Assembly: GCA_025360455.1 (NCBI GenBank)
Contig: JANYCF010000337.1
Location: 1 to 36,014, forward strand
Reading direction: 5' to 3'
Length of the DNA stretch: 36,014 bases
From: Opitutaceae bacterium
Lineage (GTDB): Bacteria; Verrucomicrobiota; Verrucomicrobiia; Opitutales; Opitutaceae
In this document: positions 2,737-31,087 of the stretch, in pieces
Position numbering within the stretch: position 1 is the first letter of the stretch
Layout of the letters: the number at the start of each line of letters is the position of its first letter
Made by a program: the position numbers and the translations under genes
The notes under the pieces: model-generated
Databases searched by the model: none
The model's input: the letters and a program-made list of their open reading frames with translations, nothing else
What the model was told of the DNA's origin: nothing

Positions 2737-5319
2737 ATGATGCCGAGTGAAACATCCGCCTCATCAAACCTTGCGCCTCGTACGCGTGGCGGCCGCGCGT
2801 GGTATCTCGTTGGCGGGTTGGTGCTGATGCTCGGAGTGGGGGTGGGTCTTTTCGCGCACTATTTCAGAAAAGCCGAAACGACTCCTGCACTGCGCGGCCA
2901 GATAGTTGCTCATAATCTGGGATGTTTCGCTTGTCATGGGGTAGATGGTCGTGGCGGGGTGGCCGATCCGGGTTCGCGCAGTGGAGTGGTGCCGGGCTGG
3001 GACGGACCGACCGTTGCGACCTATGCGCAGAACGACGCGGAAGTAATCGAGTGGATTGTCGATGGGAAACCGGTGCGGTTAAAGGACGCGGATATCAACG
3101 CCGGTCGCAAACCGCTTCTGCCCATGCCTGCGTATCGCGGCAAAATCTCACAGCAAGAGCTCGCCGATTTGATGGTGTATTTCCGTACGGTGTCGGCTTT
3201 CGATACAAATATCACGGTCCTTGCCTACGAAGGTATGCACGAGGCAAATAAACTCGGCTGCTTTGCGTGTCATGGCCAGGGCGGGGTGGGTGGTGCGATA
3301 AATCCCGGGAGTTTCAAAGGCCACATCCCCGCGTGGGATGGCGAAGAATACGCGGAGATCGTGCGCGACGAAGGTGAACTGCGCGAGTGGATCATGGGCG
3401 GTTATCCCATGAGGTTGTGGGAAAATCCGGCGGCGCGGCATTTCCTTGACGGTCAGATCGTACAAATGCCCGCGTACCGTCGCGTGATCAGTGATGATCA
3501 ATTGGCGAAGATTATGGGTTATATCCAGTGGCGCCGAACCGCGCGCAAGCCGGCCGAGTTGCACGATCCCGCAGTGCCAACCTTTCCTGCGGAGACGGGC
3601 CGGCCAGCTTCTCCGAGTTACCGTTCACCCCAGTATATCTGTCTTTCGCCGGACGGGTTGAAAACCTACGTCGTGAATTATACGGCGGCGTTGGTTTCGG
3701 TTCTCGATGTCAAAGAACACAAAGTGGTCGGCGAAATTCCCGTCAGTGCCCGTCCGACGCAGGCAAAGTTTTCGCCGGATGGCCGGTTTCTTTATGTCAG
3801 CTGCACATGGGCGGAGAAAATCGATGTCATTGATATCGCTCAGGGGAAAGTCATCCGCTCGCTGACGGCGGGATTTGAACCTTGTGGACTGAGTGTTTCC
3901 GTCGATGGCAAGCGGTTGTTCGTGACGAATGTCGTTTCCAGTACGGTATCGATTCTTGATGTAGAAACGGGCCGCACGCTATCGGAGACGCCGGTTGGCC
4001 GTCAGCCGCGGTTCGCGACGCTCACGCCCGACGGCTCACGGCTGGCGGTCTCGAATGGGCTCTCGCCTTGGATTTCGCTGCTCGATCCGAATGATGGCCG
4101 GGAGATCGGGCGCTATGACATGGGCCGCGCCTCGATGCTGCGCGAGATCGTTTGCAGCAAGGATGGGCATTGGGTGTTTGTCACGAATCTCGTTTCCCAC
4201 AATGAAGTGCCGACGGTTCAGATGGAGCGCGGTTGGATCAACTCGAATGGGTTCTCTGTGCTGGATCTGACGCAGTCGAATCGCCGCGTCACGTTGCTCC
4301 TCGACCAGCTGCTGTCCGGTGCGACGAATCCCTGTGGCATCGCGCTGTCGTCGGACGCAAAGCGACTCTACGTGAGCCTCGCGGGCATTCACGAAATTGC
4401 GATCATCGATCTGCCGGCCGCGCTCGCGCTCGCTGAACAGGCCAAGACGCCGTTGGAAATTCAACGACTCGAGGAAAACGTCGAGATTCTGCAACAGAAG
4501 AAAATCGCCCGACGTTTACCCGCAGGCGGTTTCGGGCCGCGCTCGTTGGCGTTGAGCGAGGCCACAGGCGAGTTGTGGGTGGCGAATTATTTCAGTGATA
4601 ACGTCACCGTGCTCGATGCCGAGACTGGAGCGGTTCGTGCCACGATTCCACTCGGACCCGTGCAGGAAATGTCCGAGTGGCGCAAAGGCGAACTGATGGC
4701 GAACGACGGCCGGATCACTTATCAGAATTGGATCAGTTGCACGAGTTGCCACCAGGAGGACACGACGAGTGACGGCTTAAATTGGGATCTCGCGAATGAT
4801 GGGCTCGGCAATGCGAAGAACAATAAATCGTTGCAGGATGCGCACAATACGCCGCCGTTGATGTGGGCCGGTGTCCGCATGGATCTGCCCGATGGGATGC
4901 GGGCGGGGCAACGGTTTCAAGGCTTCGTGCCGGTGGAGTCTGTTCAGGGGCCGATGGTGGAGTACCTCTCGCATCCCGATCGCGCGCCGAATCCGTACCG
5001 CACGATCAACCCCGAGACCCTTGAGCGCGGTAAGAAACTTTATACCCTTGCCGGCTGCGTCTTGTGCCATCCTGCGCCGTTGTTCACCGATTTGAAATTT
5101 CACGACGTCGGTTTCGGTGCACCGAACGATTTTAGAAACCGTTTCGATACCCCGACGCTGCATAGCGTGTATCGTACCGCGCCTTATCTCCACGACGGCA
5201 GCGCGCCGGATTTGCTCACGCTGTTTACCGAGCACAACCCGAACGACGTGCATGGTCGGACCAAGGGTTTCACCACGCAGGAACTGGACGATTTGCTAAC
5301 CTACGTGAGGAGTCTGTGA
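2737..5319 (+). CDS. membrane-anchored multihaem cytochrome c / YVTN beta-propeller / MauG-like fusion
   Basis: This 860-aa protein starts with a single hydrophobic anchor (about residues 22-42). Two cytochrome c domains follow, each with a CFACH haem motif (C63 and C175) and a downstream MPAYR segment that fits the usual axial-methionine region. A YVTN-type propeller occupies about residues 295-640, with repeated SPDG...VxD blades. The C-terminal part has CTSCH (C668) and CVLCH (C775) and ends like di-haem peroxidases of the MauG/CcpA type (TPTLHSVYRTAPYLHDGS). Four CxxCH motifs in all. It probably faces the periplasm and handles electrons or oxidises a partner; the substrate is unknown. It is the first gene of a coupled operon. 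Two start codons are adjacent (2737, 2740) and I see no good ribosome site in front of them. Confidence 0.88.
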   Translation: MMPSETSASSNLAPRTRGGRAWYLVGGLVLMLGVGVGLFAHYFRKAETTPALRGQIVAHNLGCFACHGVDGRGGVADPGSRSGVVPGWDGPTVATYAQNDAEVIEWIVDGKPVRLKDADINAGRKPLLPMPAYRGKISQQELADLMVYFRTVSAFDTNITVLAYEGMHEANKLGCFACHGQGGVGGAINPGSFKGHIPAWDGEEYAEIVRDEGELREWIMGGYPMRLWENPAARHFLDGQIVQMPAYRRVISDDQLAKIMGYIQWRRTARKPAELHDPAVPTFPAETGRPASPSYRSPQYICLSPDGLKTYVVNYTAALVSVLDVKEHKVVGEIPVSARPTQAKFSPDGRFLYVSCTWAEKIDVIDIAQGKVIRSLTAGFEPCGLSVSVDGKRLFVTNVVSSTVSILDVETGRTLSETPVGRQPRFATLTPDGSRLAVSNGLSPWISLLDPNDGREIGRYDMGRASMLREIVCSKDGHWVFVTNLVSHNEVPTVQMERGWINSNGFSVLDLTQSNRRVTLLLDQLLSGATNPCGIALSSDAKRLYVSLAGIHEIAIIDLPAALALAEQAKTPLEIQRLEENVEILQQKKIARRLPAGGFGPRSLALSEATGELWVANYFSDNVTVLDAETGAVRATIPLGPVQEMSEWRKGELMANDGRITYQNWISCTSCHQEDTTSDGLNWDLANDGLGNAKNNKSLQDAHNTPPLMWAGVRMDLPDGMRAGQRFQGFVPVESVQGPMVEYLSHPDRAPNPYRTINPETLERGKKLYTLAGCVLCHPAPLFTDLKFHDVGFGAPNDFRNRFDTPTLHSVYRTAPYLHDGSAPDLLTLFTEHNPNDVHGRTKGFTTQELDDLLTYVRSL
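5307..5312 (+). promoter_or_regulatory. Shine-Dalgarno site fixing the start of the second cytochrome gene
   Basis: GAGGAG lies inside the last codons of the upstream cytochrome gene, six bases before ATG 5319. That ATG shares its A with the upstream TGA stop (5317-5319). This supports translational coupling and fixes the start, which matters because the codons just downstream lie in a palindromic repeat. Confidence 0.65.
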
Positions 5320-8300
5320 TGAATTTTGAGCACCTCATTGAAAATCTGGAGCAACCGTTATTAGCGTCTTGGGTAGGGCGTGACCACTGGGCGCACCGTA
5401 AGGACCTTCGCGGACGGCCCAGCGGTCCGTCCCTACCGGCGCTTCCGCGCCCGATACTAACTGCATTTGGCCTCGCGCTCTGGTTTTTCTGCGCATTACC
5501 GCTACTCGTGCATGCCGCTCCTGAGGCTTTCGATCCGAATGCCGCTTATCAACCCGGCGGCCTGGCTTATCCGTATGGCGTGCTCTCGCCGGAACTCGTG
5601 CGGGAAGTGCTGCGAGTTGATGCCGGTAATCCGCCTTCGCGCTTCGGCAAACTCATGAGCAAGCAATGGGCCTACGGCGCAACATGGTCCCGGGAGAATT
5701 TGCGGCCGGTTCCGAATCCGCATCCTGCACCTGAACCTCAACCGCAGCGTGATCATCCGTTCGACGTCGCCGTCTGCGGCGATGGAACCAAAGCATACAT
5801 CAGCCTGCTTGGTTCCGAAATGAGGCCAGGTTCTGAGGTTGCCGTTTACGACGTGACTTCAGGCAAGATGACCAAGCGGATTCTGCTTAAACTCGCGGGT
5901 GAGTCCGGCCCGGCGGGTTCCGCGCCGATGCGGCTGCATCTGCATCCGAACGGCCGGCATTTGTTCGTCGGCAATCGGTTTTCAAATTTCATCAGTGTCA
6001 TCGACACGAAGCGCGATGCGGTCGTGTTTGAGATTCCAATAGATTTCTACGCGCAGGGAATGACTTTTTCGCCTGACGGAAAAATGGCCTGGGTCGCTAA
6101 CCGCTATCTCGATGAGGTGTTCGTGATCGATATCGATGCGAACGGCGATCAGTTTTCTGCGAAGATGCGCGTGATCGGCGGGCTCAACGATCACGCCTAC
6201 TTTGCGCCGGACGGCATCGGTAAGATCATGCAGCAAAATTGTGGTACGACGGGATGCCATGAGATGAAGCGTGGTGGATTTGTGGCCGGTGCCGATCTTC
6301 GCGAGAGTTTCACTTCAGCACTTGATCACATTGTTCCCGGTTCTTCCATGCAGAGTCGTTTGTTGCGCGCGGTCACTAGGACGCGTGATGGAGGGTACGC
6401 CGACACGATGCCGCTCTTCCAGAGCCATGCGAACAAGACCGTCGTCTTCGGCGATCCGGCGCATGACGCCAACTATCAGGCGATCGCGAAGTGGATCGAT
6501 TCCACCCTGATCGGACCCGGCATCGATGTGGGCAATCCCCGCAGCAAGCCGAGTATCGTCACGCTCAGTTCGGATGGTCGCCATCTCTTCGTCGGCAACA
6601 CCGGTACGCAGGATATCTCGATTGTCGATACGCGCAGTAACAAGGAGGTGGGGGCGATCTACCTTCAGAATGTTACCAACGAGCTGAAAATTCTGCGCTC
6701 CCCGAAAACCGGCGACGATTGGTTATTCGTCACGACGATGGGCGTCGGTTTCGGCACGGCCAAGGAACGCGATCCATGGGCCGGCGAGACGTGGGACCGC
6801 GCCAACGCCGCGTCGCAGTACACCGTCTGGCGCGATCCCAACACCGCGGCGGTCTTCGCCAAGGACAAGCAGGAAGTCCTCGGGCCGTTCGAGGCAACCG
6901 ATGGCACCGCGAACTTCAAGTTCCGCGATATCCAAAACGATTACGTGCTCATCAACGTCAGCAAGTTGTCGATCCCCGAGGAGTCGCCGAAGTCAGGGCT
7001 GAACTATCTGTTGAAAGCGAATCGCTATGAGGCGCACCGAAATTGGGTGCGCTACACGTCGGATACCGCGGAGTCGATGTACCCGGACACGAAGGGCGAT
7101 ATTCCGCCGGAGCTCATGCGCGTCGTGGGCGCGCTGCCGGACAAGGCGGTGGTCGTGGGCGACCGGATCTTTGTGGCGATGCAAGGTTCCGGCGAAGTGC
7201 AGGAACTGCAGGTCAACGTCGATGCTGCTGATCCCAGCGAGATCCTCATGCCGATCCGCAATTACGTTACTGGGGCGCAGCCTTTTGGCATTGCGGCGGG
7301 AGTGCCGGGCACGCCATCGGCCGGAAAACTTTTCGTCGCCAATTTCTACGGCAGCTCGCTCTCAGTGATCGATCGCCAGACGGGTGCGATGCATGAGTTT
7401 CCGACTGATCCGGCTCTCTATAAATTGCCCTTGGGCATCACCAGTGCGGAACGCGGCGAGTTTCTCGTGCACACTTCGGCCTTCACGAGTGATAACGATC
7501 AGTCGTGCGTCAGTTGCCACTACCGCGAACTCAACGACGGGCGTGGCTGGGGTGTCAGCCAGATTCAGGGTCAGGAATATCTCACCGGGCAGGACAAGGT
7601 CGGCAATCTCGTCGAGGGCACGACGATGCTGCCGCCGCAGCAAAAGAGTTTGTGGGGCATCCAGCCGTTCTTTCTCGAAGGCTCGCTCTCGATCTACGAT
7701 CCGCGCTCGATGCTGATGGAGCATTGCCCCGCAGACGATTTCAAGGACATCACCGGGCAGGGAGACTTCCGCGACATCGAGGCACATGCACCGGTCCTCG
7801 CCGTGCAGGACATTCAATCGAAGACGACATCGGCAGCCGGCAACGAATCGAATCTCGAGGAACGGCGCGCGGAATTCTTCCGGCGCACGTCGCTCAAATA
7901 CTTTGGAAAATCTTTTGTGCTGCGGGATTTTCAACGCTTCGTCGGTGAGTGGCAGGCGCACGAACCACGGTTGATGCCGAATCCGTTTGATCAGAATTCG
8001 GCTTCCGTGAGTCGCGGCAAAGCGTTGTTTAACCACCCGCAGCTCGGCTGTGCGTCGTGTCATCCGGCACCGCATTTTGCGAAAAAAGATTTCCCCAACA
8101 ATCCCCGGCAGGTCGTGCCGCCGCAGGTGCCCTTAAGCGTGCGCGATAGCGGCTTCACGCTGATCAGTATGTACCGGCTCGATTACATGGCCGGGATTCG
8201 CCACGACCTCGAGCCGTGGGACATCGGCCGCGCCGAAACTCCGGGTCAGAACCAGCACATCACGCCGCTCCAGCTGCGCGGCGCGTGGGATCGCCCTCCG

Positions 8301-8591
8301 CTTTTCTTGCACAATGCCATGGCCCGTTCGTTACGCGAAGTCATCGCGGCTCCCGGTGTACCCGGACTGGGTTGGTTCAAATATGAGCCGCTATTCGGTG
8401 GTGAGCCGGAGCGGCCCGGTCGGCGTGAAATCGGTTTCAATGAAACGTATATGATTCCGAAGGGAACGCCCGCGGCGAAAGTTCACCTTCAAACCGGTGG
8501 ACGCATCGCGAGCGATGCCCACGGCGGCACTTCGCAGCTCACCCCGCAGCAGATCGACGATCTGGTGAATTACCTGGAGACCATCGAATGA
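5319..8591 (+). CDS. exported beta-propeller/cytochrome c protein, MauG-like C-terminus
   Basis: The ATG at 5319 overlaps the upstream stop by one base and has a good ribosome site. The 1090-aa product has an unusually long n-region of about 45 residues, part of it encoded by a palindromic repeat (residues 19-39), before a signal core (ILTAFGLALWFFCALPLLVHA). I find no ATG, GTG or TTG in frame between the repeat and that core. Propeller sequence follows, interrupted near residues 300-400 by a cytochrome-like insert with a C-x4-C-H motif (C308, C313, H314) and a region resembling planctomycete-type cytochromes (IVPGSSMQSRLLRAV). More blades lead to CVSCH (C730) and CASCH (C911) in a MauG-like C-terminus (TPLQLRGAWDRPPLFLHNA). 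It is probably a periplasmic redox partner of the preceding cytochrome. Substrate unknown. Confidence 0.85.
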   Translation: MNFEHLIENLEQPLLASWVGRDHWAHRKDLRGRPSGPSLPALPRPILTAFGLALWFFCALPLLVHAAPEAFDPNAAYQPGGLAYPYGVLSPELVREVLRVDAGNPPSRFGKLMSKQWAYGATWSRENLRPVPNPHPAPEPQPQRDHPFDVAVCGDGTKAYISLLGSEMRPGSEVAVYDVTSGKMTKRILLKLAGESGPAGSAPMRLHLHPNGRHLFVGNRFSNFISVIDTKRDAVVFEIPIDFYAQGMTFSPDGKMAWVANRYLDEVFVIDIDANGDQFSAKMRVIGGLNDHAYFAPDGIGKIMQQNCGTTGCHEMKRGGFVAGADLRESFTSALDHIVPGSSMQSRLLRAVTRTRDGGYADTMPLFQSHANKTVVFGDPAHDANYQAIAKWIDSTLIGPGIDVGNPRSKPSIVTLSSDGRHLFVGNTGTQDISIVDTRSNKEVGAIYLQNVTNELKILRSPKTGDDWLFVTTMGVGFGTAKERDPWAGETWDRANAASQYTVWRDPNTAAVFAKDKQEVLGPFEATDGTANFKFRDIQNDYVLINVSKLSIPEESPKSGLNYLLKANRYEAHRNWVRYTSDTAESMYPDTKGDIPPELMRVVGALPDKAVVVGDRIFVAMQGSGEVQELQVNVDAADPSEILMPIRNYVTGAQPFGIAAGVPGTPSAGKLFVANFYGSSLSVIDRQTGAMHEFPTDPALYKLPLGITSAERGEFLVHTSAFTSDNDQSCVSCHYRELNDGRGWGVSQIQGQEYLTGQDKVGNLVEGTTMLPPQQKSLWGIQPFFLEGSLSIYDPRSMLMEHCPADDFKDITGQGDFRDIEAHAPVLAVQDIQSKTTSAAGNESNLEERRAEFFRRTSLKYFGKSFVLRDFQRFVGEWQAHEPRLMPNPFDQNSASVSRGKALFNHPQLGCASCHPAPHFAKKDFPNNPRQVVPPQVPLSVRDSGFTLISMYRLDYMAGIRHDLEPWDIGRAETPGQNQHITPLQLRGAWDRPPLFLHNAMARSLREVIAAPGVPGLGWFKYEPLFGGEPERPGRREIGFNETYMIPKGTPAAKVHLQTGGRIASDAHGGTSQLTPQQIDDLVNYLETIE
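5374..5437 (+). repeat. palindromic repeat, family I, inside the second cytochrome gene
   Basis: An imperfect inverted repeat running from TAGGGCGTGACCACTGGGC to GGCCCAGCGGTCCGTCCCTA. The same core appears at about 18544-18623, and its right arm also at 31047-31061, so this is a dispersed family. Here it lies wholly within an open reading frame (codons 19-39 of the gene at 5319), with no stop introduced. The product of that stretch is rich in Arg, Pro and Gly. Confidence 0.75.
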
Positions 8592-9665: not shown

Positions 9666-10856
9666 ATGCATCCGACTATTCAAATAACTTCCCTCTCCAG
9701 TGCCTTCAAAGTGGAACCCGACCTCTGGGCGGGTTTTGGAATGAGCGTTGCCGGAAAGCGCGCCCGGAGGTTGCGCTCCACCTTTGTGGTTATGCTCGTC
9801 ATGCTTGCATCGGTCGCCACTCATGCGACTGAAACCATGACTCCACCTGAAGGCATGGTGCTCGTGCCCGCGGGTGCGTTCACGATGGGGTCTGACGAGG
9901 GAAATTTCGATGAGCGGCCGGCACACCAGGTCGAGCTCTTCGCCTATTTCATCGACCGGCACGAGGTCACGATTGAAGCGTTCAATCATTACGTGCGCGT
10001 GACGGATCTCTTTGATGTGATCGAAGGTCCGTGGTTCCGGGTGTCCACGGAAGCCTGCGTCGAACTTCTCGCGCGCTACGAGAAGCGTTACGGAGCGACC
10101 TACGCCAAATTTCAAGCCCCGCAACTAAATGAAAAAGTGGCGGCGGAGCGGCTCACCCTCGATTCGCTCCACTGGAAAGCGGCAGTGGCGGCCTTACGTG
10201 TGTTACTCGGCAAGGACCGATCTCTGGCCGATGAATGCGCGGCCGATATCGCTGCTGCACCCGTCGTGCAGGCTTTGCTTCAAGCGGAAGCGCGCCTGCC
10301 GATCACTTTTGTCACCTGGCGCGATGCCGTCGCTTACGCGCATTGGGCGGGTAAGCGTTTGCCGACTGAAGCCGAATGGGAAAAGGCGGCGCGCGGGACT
10401 GATGGCCGGGTGTATCCGTGGGGCAACGAGTGGGATCAGGCCAAGGCTCGCGCGGGACTGGATGTCGACGCCGGTCCGACGAGCGTCGGAAGTTTTCCGC
10501 AAGGCGCGAGCCCGTATGGTTGCCTCGATATGGCGGGTAACGTTTGGGAATGGTGCGAAGATTGGTTTGGCGAGTATTATTATAAGGAGTGCGCTGATGG
10601 CATCATCGATCCGAAAGGTCCGGCAGGGCTGCCCAATGGAGAATTACCGAAGCAAGATCCGAACGTTAACTATCTGCAGAATGCCGCGAAGCAGGGACGT
10701 GAAACTGACACGCGCAAAATTGTGCGCGGTGGCTGTTGGGCCGCCGGCATGATCGGCCAGACGGAATTCAACAACCGCGCCGCGCGACGTCTGTGGTCCA
10801 ACCCCGATTACTGGTCGGAAGACACCGGATTTCGCTGCGCGAAAAATGCTCCATGA
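9666..10856 (+). CDS. exported SUMF1/FGE-like domain protein with central insertion
   Basis: The ATG at 9666 lies ten bases after the upstream stop. The 396-aa product begins with about 14 unremarkable residues. Some 26 residues encoded by a palindromic repeat follow (they supply GKRARRLRST), then a short hydrophobic signal core (FVVMLVMLASVATHA). The SUMF1 domain starts at PPEGMVLVPAGAFTMGSDEG and carries DERPAHQVELFAYFIDRHEV, WAGKRLPTEAEWEKAARGTD, DMAGNVWEWCEDWFGEYYYK, IVRGGCW and TGFRCAKN. About 100 residues between IDRHEV and VTWRDAVAYAHWAGKRLP form an unusual mostly helical-looking insertion. The two FGE copper cysteines are missing here too (GGCWAAGMIGQTEF). An ATG at 9792 would leave a signal peptide with no basic n-region, so the start at 9666 is preferred. 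Confidence 0.82.
   Translation: MHPTIQITSLSSAFKVEPDLWAGFGMSVAGKRARRLRSTFVVMLVMLASVATHATETMTPPEGMVLVPAGAFTMGSDEGNFDERPAHQVELFAYFIDRHEVTIEAFNHYVRVTDLFDVIEGPWFRVSTEACVELLARYEKRYGATYAKFQAPQLNEKVAAERLTLDSLHWKAAVAALRVLLGKDRSLADECAADIAAAPVVQALLQAEARLPITFVTWRDAVAYAHWAGKRLPTEAEWEKAARGTDGRVYPWGNEWDQAKARAGLDVDAGPTSVGSFPQGASPYGCLDMAGNVWEWCEDWFGEYYYKECADGIIDPKGPAGLPNGELPKQDPNVNYLQNAAKQGRETDTRKIVRGGCWAAGMIGQTEFNNRAARRLWSNPDYWSEDTGFRCAKNAP
9708..9785 (+). repeat. palindromic repeat, family II, inside the second SUMF1 gene
   Basis: The arms at 9708-9731 and 9761-9785 are imperfect reverse complements (left arm begins AAAGTGGAACCCGACCTC, right arm ends GGAGGTTGCGCTCCACCTTT). The arm consensus GTGGAACSCGRCCTCTGG recurs at 10901-10973. 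The element lies in codons 15-40 of the gene starting at 9666 and keeps its frame open, giving a strongly basic stretch just before the signal core. Confidence 0.7.
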
Positions 10857-10900: not shown

Positions 10901-10973
10901 GGTGGAACGCGGCCTCTGGACGCGTTTTCATTTTCGGGAGTCGCGCCAACCCGTCCAGAGGCCGGGTTCCACC
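10901..10973 (+). repeat. palindromic repeat, family II, second copy
   Basis: 22-base arms at 10901-10922 and 10952-10973 are reverse complements with one mismatch (left arm begins GGTGGAACGCGGCCTCTGG). It belongs to the family of the element at 9708-9785. It lies 45 bases downstream of the stop of the second SUMF1 gene, within the frame that opens at ATG 10853 and runs into the lipoprotein gene. Confidence 0.75.
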
Positions 10974-18525: not shown

Positions 18526-18648
18526 AGAGGGCGGCTAAAAAGATAGGTCGGCACCGCTGGGCGCGCCGTTTTGTGGGTGCACTCACTGGCAAATCGCGGC
18601 GGGCCCAGCGGTCCCGCCCTACCAATGGACCCTTTTTAGACGCCCTCT
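18526..18648. repeat. full-length palindromic element, family I, with terminal inverted repeats (MITE-like)
   Basis: The 17-base ends at 18526-18542 (AGAGGGCGGCTAAAAAG) and 18632-18648 (CTTTTTAGACGCCCTCT) are inverted repeats with one mismatch. Inside, the arms around GCACCGCTGGGCGCGCCG and CGGGCCCAGCGGTCCCGCCC pair again. The right-hand 32 bases (18617-18648) are identical to 31056-31087, and the inner core matches the element at 5374-5437. It is about 123 bases long and carries no gene, as expected of a miniature element mobilised in trans. I see no clear target duplication. Confidence 0.75.
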
Positions 18649-31019: not shown

Positions 31020-31087
31020 GTCTGCTTGGGGCGGCCCCGACTAATCGCGGTCCCACCCTACCAATGGACCCTTTTTAGACGCCCTCT
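31020..31087. repeat. palindromic repeat, family I, partial copy
   Basis: The right half (31056-31087) is identical over 32 bases to 18617-18648, and bases 31047-31055 differ from the other copy by one base. The left part is shortened and starts right at the stop codon of the epimerase gene (AAGTAGGTCTGC), where the full element has ATAGGTCGGC. The outer left inverted end is missing. Confidence 0.65.

Follow-up and report, generated by a model that had tools for sequence, protein, structure and literature searches.

Di Nocera et al. (2013, PMC3733652) described GTAG REPs inside open reading frames, and the main text of that survey names Opitutus terrae as the genome richest in intragenic GTAG repeats and treats many N-terminal REPs, in several species, as suspected misannotations of genes with downstream starts. 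The term "signal peptide" does not occur in that main text. In Yersinia, the element YPAL/RU-2 is reported in the gene YPO1552, and the related sequences of other genera are described as having signal peptides that are unrelated to the repeat (Delihas 2007, PMC2759123; PMC2229807). For the palindromic elements of Rickettsia (Ogata et al. 2000, as cited in PMC3733652 and PMC2229807), proteins with RPE-1 at the N-terminus were reported to be expressed, whereas the REPINs of Pseudomonas fluorescens SBW25 are presented as extragenic (Bertels and Rainey 2011, PMC3116915).

The window analyzed here, the whole stretch of 36,014 nucleotides from the Opitutaceae bacterium assembly GCA_025360455.1 (contig JANYCF010000337.1), contains a GTAG-type REP doublet, a REPIN-like palindrome of 66 bp (5372–5437, forward strand, as are the parts of the cytochrome and FGE-sulfatase genes described below), located near the start of a gene for a beta-propeller/c-type cytochrome of 1090 amino acids (5319–8591). 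The palindrome has GTAG-type ends (GGTAGGG...CCCTACC) in an inverted pair that forms one hairpin, and it would be translated as (W)VGRDHWAHRKDLRGRPSGPSLP. An earlier note on this DNA had placed the repeat at 5374–5437 and in codons 19–39; its existence, far beyond chance and with many copies in the genome, and its position within the coding frame were borne out, while its limits had to be redrawn to 5372–5437, beginning at the third base of codon 18 and ending in codon 40 as counted from the ATG at 5319.

With 40 of 102 candidates scored, BLAST against the genome of the window gave at least 55 matches at E ≤ 1, and many of these spanned nearly the whole repeat with 79–92% identity. A covariance model trained on 18 copies gave at least 108 matches at E ≤ 0.01 in the same genome (150 of 4054 first-look candidates scored), the two strands of the palindrome being counted apart. 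The copies are thus dispersed in the manner of GTAG REPs and REPINs, and under strict filters 52 of 100 genomes of the family, that of the window included, had a match at E ≤ 1e-4. When 30 copies were aligned side by side, most presented sharp ends. The RNA hairpin of the copy at 5372–5437 was calculated at −41.5 kcal/mol, ranking 19th of 24 copies, which is compatible with drift or with mild selection against structure; the DNA fold with flanks gave a z-score of only −1.85, a value that counts against the pairing of this copy into one hairpin. A known structured RNA was considered and rejected, no Rfam match at E ≤ 1 being found over 5000–6000. A 14-bp palindrome (GGCGCTTCCGCGCC, 5438–5451), which would also be translated within the n-region, follows directly 3′ of the repeat. 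The same form, GGCGC....GCGCC, directly trails three of the 30 aligned copies, the one at 5372–5437 among them, and is found degenerate or displaced in two more (L028 and L030), so that the repeat-derived stretch probably extends to 5451. Elsewhere in the window, a 41-base stretch consisting of a REP-like palindrome end and AATGGACCCTTTTTAGACGCCCTCT occurs at 18608 and at 31047 with 98% identity (regions 18542–18648 and 31047–31087), which suggests that it is part of a composite element.

The start of the cytochrome gene is well defined. A GAGGAG ribosome-binding site and the ATG at 5319 (5307–5321) lie at the end of another cytochrome c/beta-propeller gene (2737–5319), the TGA stop of which (5317–5319) shares one base with the ATG (TGATG), and GAGGAG ends 6 nt before that ATG. 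The n-region reads WVGRDHWAHRKDLRGRPSGPSLPALPRP and is followed by the hydrophobic core and c-region ILTAFGLALWFFCALPLLVHA (5454–5516), with cleavage predicted before APEAF. Upstream of the core, standard in-frame starts (ATG, GTG or TTG) are limited to GTG5316 and ATG5319, which both lie 5′ of the repeat; the next one after ATG5319 is GTG5508, within the core. Among the near-cognate codons checked (CTG, ATA, ATT and ATC), ATT5337 and CTG5346 precede the repeat, and ATA5454 is the only one between the repeat and the core. Of the three forward frames of this copy, two are interrupted by stops, and the third, the one in use, is open and in phase through the repeat. Since c-type cytochromes require export for heme attachment, the CXXCH motifs at residues 730 and 911 and the CX4CH motif at 308 indicate that this protein needs to be exported. 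As far as hydropathy and charge can tell, a Sec signal is present, with a basic n-region, a hydrophobic core and small residues before the cleavage site; the core hydropathy was 2.32, compared with 1.53–2.57 in five orthologues, and the net charge was +3 over the 20 residues before the core, with two of the three arginines coming from the repeat. The net charge of the whole n-region was only +1, with three glutamates in the first 18 residues, which is unusual for an n-region. The earlier note had argued that the coupled ATG fixes the start, that no standard start lies in frame between the repeat and the core, and that export therefore requires translation of the repeat, and each of these steps agrees with the codon inventory and with the orthologues discussed below. 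With standard starts only 5′ of the repeat, the repeat inside this signal peptide almost certainly has to be translated if the cytochrome is exported, as judged from sequence.

A comparison with orthologues free of the repeat, proposed in the earlier note as a check, was carried out with nine distinct loci, namely six full-length loci among 200 genomes of the family together with L094, L097 and L098. These three came from seven loci of a named collection, in which L095, L096 and L099 were counted once with the loci of G130, G110 and G158, and L100, a weak partial match, was left out, as were the other matches among the 200 genomes, which were short propeller or repeat matches. The ATG overlaps the upstream stop in eight of the nine orthologues, G020 being the exception, and the repeat model found no match at the gene start in any of the nine. 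The site is thus empty in all of them, as expected of a mobile element, with inexact insertion edges. The tail of the upstream gene could be made out by eye ahead of the cytochrome gene in every one of the nine, an arrangement that speaks against a misjoined contig. Two of the more distant orthologues begin with MSF, where the gene of the window begins with MNF. The number of residues before the next conserved motif was found to be 76 here, versus 37, 37 and 35 in L094, L095 and L033, respectively, so that the three closest orthologues are shorter by 39–41 residues.

The net gain over the two nearest orthologues, 39 residues or 117 nt, is made up of the 66 nt of the repeat, the 14 nt of the small palindrome and approximately 37 nt 5′ of the repeat, for which a search of the genome found no source. 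The extra n-region sequence on that side (5328–5371) is shorter in the orthologues and has no second copy in the genome, the best other match being 15 bases; the idea that the left 53 nt belong to the repeat family was rejected on this ground. The left segment was also considered as an old signal peptide, given the residues that MNLRNSILWLIAPLSAVA and MNFEHLIENLEQPLLASW visibly have in common, but this was set aside because the core lies 3′ of the repeat and pairs with the LW...PL...A of the orthologue. Over the 1015 codons from codon 76 on, comparison with L094, an orthologue of 87% identity, gave dN and dS values of 0.063 and 1.15, respectively (dN/dS about 0.055), and the cytochrome is under strong purifying selection. 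Together with the heme motifs, this ratio fits a working exported cytochrome and agrees with the claim that a palindrome was taken up without breaking the gene, to which are to be added that the case is not singular in its genome and that the gain exceeds the repeat itself.

Other signal peptides of the same genome were examined in a hand census of 68 first-family copies (64 plus four) and 41 second-family copies, judged from the open frame, from codon-usage scores and by reading the sequence, the first-family places C348, C153, C173, C181, C404 and C4 and the unscored candidates being left aside. About six signal-peptide n-regions appear to carry REPs of two families: those at 5372 and 9710 of the window and those of L119, L260, L230 and L236. 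In the GH115 protein L119 (...LCLRILFA[RVGQARWARRMDVRSGPKGPALP]LFIFALLMVSIAPVRA) an ATG lies inside the repeat, the relatives L184 and L187 have short signal peptides, and BLAST gave no match in any of six relatives. The DUF3999 protein L260 reads MKNLLHPNRNMRDLVSL[repeat]SLLTLLLTLCAATSGFSALAPTEW, versus MKNPMHPDPKLRALLLPLLAAATLQAALTPTEW in L267, and has no standard start in the repeat or from the repeat to the core; short signal peptides were seen in six of its seven relatives, the remaining one (L265) being matched only from residue 160, and BLAST found a repeat at the start of none of the seven, with a first-family copy elsewhere in L271. The CusB-like protein L230 reads MNSS...[repeat, with an ATG]...LRSWILLAVLATSWFLVPRSLAAEQLYTCG, versus MNSSLRFLALAFVALIFALGLAAAEQLYTCG in L273; a clear short signal peptide was present in two of five relatives and a BLAST match in none. 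The n-region repeat of L236 contains a TTG and is known from the census of its own genome. Absence of the second family in relatives refers throughout to BLAST comparison, as the first-family model misses L260, L236, L230 and L255 and is not valid as a negative control for that family. The GH28-like protein L255 has a REP (4268–4340) directly after its signal peptide, so that the repeat residues would form the mature N-terminus.

A further n-region repeat lies in the same gene cluster, where a second-family palindrome (GGTGGAAC-type, 9710–9782) occupies the n-region of a second FGE-sulfatase-like gene (FGE2, 9666–10856), whose signal peptide reads MHPTIQITSLSSAF[KVEPDLWAGFGMSVAGKRARRLRST]FVVMLVMLASVATHA-TET. 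Palindromes of this type (GGTGGAAC...GTTCCACC) had been marked by the model at 10901–10973 and 9710–9782; the former lies just 3′ of FGE2 and, used as a genome query with 40 of 115 candidates scored, gave at least 71 matches at E ≤ 0.1. Translation of FGE2 could start at 9666 or at an ATG within the repeat, and only the part of the repeat 3′ of that ATG is certainly translated. In G130, a genome of another genus, the corresponding place carries a repeat that belongs to this family, has equal length and lies in an identical frame (L095, 9972–10044), the protein beginning MSIMQPAPRL[EVERDLRARFPLARTLERVRRPRST]IALLLLGLLVTARA. The best match between the two repeats is on opposite strands (31 bases, 97%, versus 26 bases, 85%, on the same strand), and they differ at many amino acid positions. 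Judged on these alignments, a single repeat inherited in both genera is no more likely than an exchange of arms or than independent insertion of two repeats at this place. Short FGE2 signal peptides were found in G113 (L033), L096, L098 and L099, none of which gave a BLAST match to either second-family repeat of the window, and the L094 contig stops before the gene.

About a dozen further REPs apparently lie within other genes. The firmest are those in TatD (L127), QueA (L239), IspG (L117) and an SNF2 helicase (L113), since in these a Pfam domain extends across the repeat or lies next to it. Weaker cases, judged by codon scores or reading, are L007 (no Pfam match), L248, L261 (Mfd-like) and L258 (MurF-like), together with L077 and L078, presumably thioredoxin-domain-like and HrpB-like, and the ComEC-like L247, in which an ATG just after the repeat may leave the repeat outside the gene. 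In L238 (769–2730), a single open frame covers BioD-like and BioF-like domains with a REP between them; this arrangement could also represent two genes. Some gene-internal positions are common to two species of the genus: the IspG site (L117/L149) to G000 and G096, the TatD site (L127/L178) to G000 and G074, and the sites in a MeaB-like GTPase (L150/L159) and an AcrB-family pump (L153/L167, the second member judged by sequence) to G096 and G074, which indicates that such insertions can persist through speciation. Six of 17 gene-internal copies lie in n-regions, which against an assumed background of 1% corresponds to a probability of about 1e-8; two later copies bring the share to 6 of 19. The C-terminal copies L104, L109 and L132 were excluded from the count, the list was hand-picked by codon-usage scores and reading, and some of its mid-gene members are weak, so that the enrichment is a suggestive indication and no formal test.

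As regards mobility, the genome has 14 matches to the Y1 transposase domain (Y1_Tnp), 12 of them over the Pfam cut-off; one of the two below it, a RAYT-like gene with a PDHLHAL motif, scored 21.2 bits, under the cut-off of 23. In this gene (L093, 1330–1824), two identical palindromes of a sister family (1243–1307 and 1820–1884) form the flanks, and the second supplies its TAG stop, as described for GTAG REPs in the main text of Di Nocera et al. (PMC3733652). None of the Y1 loci of this genome has a strong adjacent match to the family of the 5372–5437 repeat, and a RAYT-like ORF of a different genome (G009) is followed by a first-family copy at a distance of about 0.8 kb. The possibility that the repeat belongs to a bigger mobile unit with a signal peptide of its own was also considered, prompted by tblastn matches over repeat and core in contig C294 of this genome and in other genomes. 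It was ruled out, as the C294 copy sits between two genes, which we take to be UreG and UreD, and as no convincing core follows the repeat in 18 loci of other genomes, except for G074 L138, which is ambiguous owing to a TTG between repeat and core.

These observations make it highly probable that a REP/REPIN element was inserted between the start codon and the core, is read through from ATG5319 and has since been tolerated. A short non-autonomous element, whose mobilization was probably due to a RAYT-type Y1 transposase, would have entered in the lineage of the window, and, its one open forward frame falling in phase, the ribosome would start at the ancestral overlapping ATG and read the repeat as part of an n-region lengthened by about 40 residues. 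The Sec signal would act as before, the n-region being removed with the signal peptide. N-regions are removed after export and need little beyond some positive charge, which allows an insert to stay if its frame is open and its net length suitable; persistence would thus reflect their tolerance of changes in length and sequence, with little effect on fitness. As gene-internal copies use different frames and peptides, tolerance accounts for them better than one selected peptide. The same pattern in the GH115, FGE2, DUF3999 and CusB proteins and the RAYT-like gene flanked by sister palindromes speak for this explanation, whereas the draft state of the genome (405 contigs), the approximately 37 nt lacking a source, the low net charge and the glutamates of the n-region, and the sub-threshold score and sister-family palindromes of the RAYT-like gene count against it.

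It is very unlikely that the repeat is extragenic in effect, with translation starting downstream at a non-standard codon. ATA5454 is available for such a start, and the main text of Di Nocera et al. (PMC3733652) advises caution with N-terminal REPs, but initiation at ATA would leave no charged n-region, ATG, GTG and TTG are absent in frame from the interval between repeat and core, and the strong Shine–Dalgarno sequence and overlapping ATG lie upstream in an arrangement kept in eight of nine orthologues. An assembly artefact, in which the contig is misjoined at the repeat or wrongly carries it, appears very unlikely. Repeats are typical points of misassembly, the assembly is fragmented, and no second genome was found with an insertion at this position; nevertheless, the upstream tail and the cytochrome gene adjoin in all nine orthologues, the frame is intact on both sides, and the FGE2 repeat has its same-family counterpart in the separately assembled G130.

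Retention of the repeat for a function, its arginine-containing frame serving as an n-region or its mRNA hairpin slowing the ribosome and aiding targeting, is regarded as decidedly unlikely. The net positive charge just before the core, the stability of the hairpin, the recurrence in n-regions and the same-family repeat at the FGE2 place in another genus would agree with such a role. Against it, frames and peptides differ between genes, some being nearly uncharged, most of the ranked copies fold more strongly than this one, the FGE2 repeats diverge in amino acids and match best on opposite strands, and other copies lie mid-gene without a link to export. A broader proposal, that n-regions are a recurrent site of REPIN landing and retention in this bacterial group and that some copies were co-opted, a charged frame or hairpin adjusting targeting, is considered unlikely; if true, REP movement would keep remodelling export signals. 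The significance of the case lies in that N-terminal REPs were formerly set aside as probable annotation errors, whereas here the start codon is set by an overlap between genes that relatives have conserved, which makes a clear argument that a mobile palindrome is translated. That such repeats recur over several signal peptides suggests a testable rule for where small mobile repeats survive within genes, and it calls for care when start sites are annotated and signal peptides predicted in REP-rich genomes.

No closer report of such repeats in signal peptides was found in the open-access literature, subscription journals and supplementary files aside. Compared with the SBW25 REPINs as presented by Bertels and Rainey (PMC3116915), the elements are alike in being inverted REP doublets that form hairpins and are dispersed, probably also in being RAYT-associated, and unlike in that a number of those found here are intragenic. 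The Rickettsia elements, as summarized in PMC3733652 and PMC2229807, are likewise in-frame palindromic inserts tolerated by functional proteins, although of other families and from another phylum. YPAL/RU-2 belongs to another element class, described as a 168-bp MITE with target-site duplication in a putative protein of 144 amino acids (PMC2759123, PMC2229807), and in YPO1552 the repeat supplies residues 1–30 (PMC2759123), whereas here the older start and core were kept, with the repeat between them. The resemblance extends furthest to the repeats in the main text of Di Nocera et al. (PMC3733652), which are also GTAG-tagged palindromes inside ORFs, are RAYT-associated, as those found here probably are, and lie in many cases in DNA repair genes, as here in the Mfd-like protein and helicases; in contrast to the suspicion of misannotation raised there, the orthologues and the codon inventory argue in this case for obligatory translation. 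A single translated REP is, accordingly, of a kind already known, and it is the recurrence of REPs in the signal-peptide n-regions of one genome that may be new.
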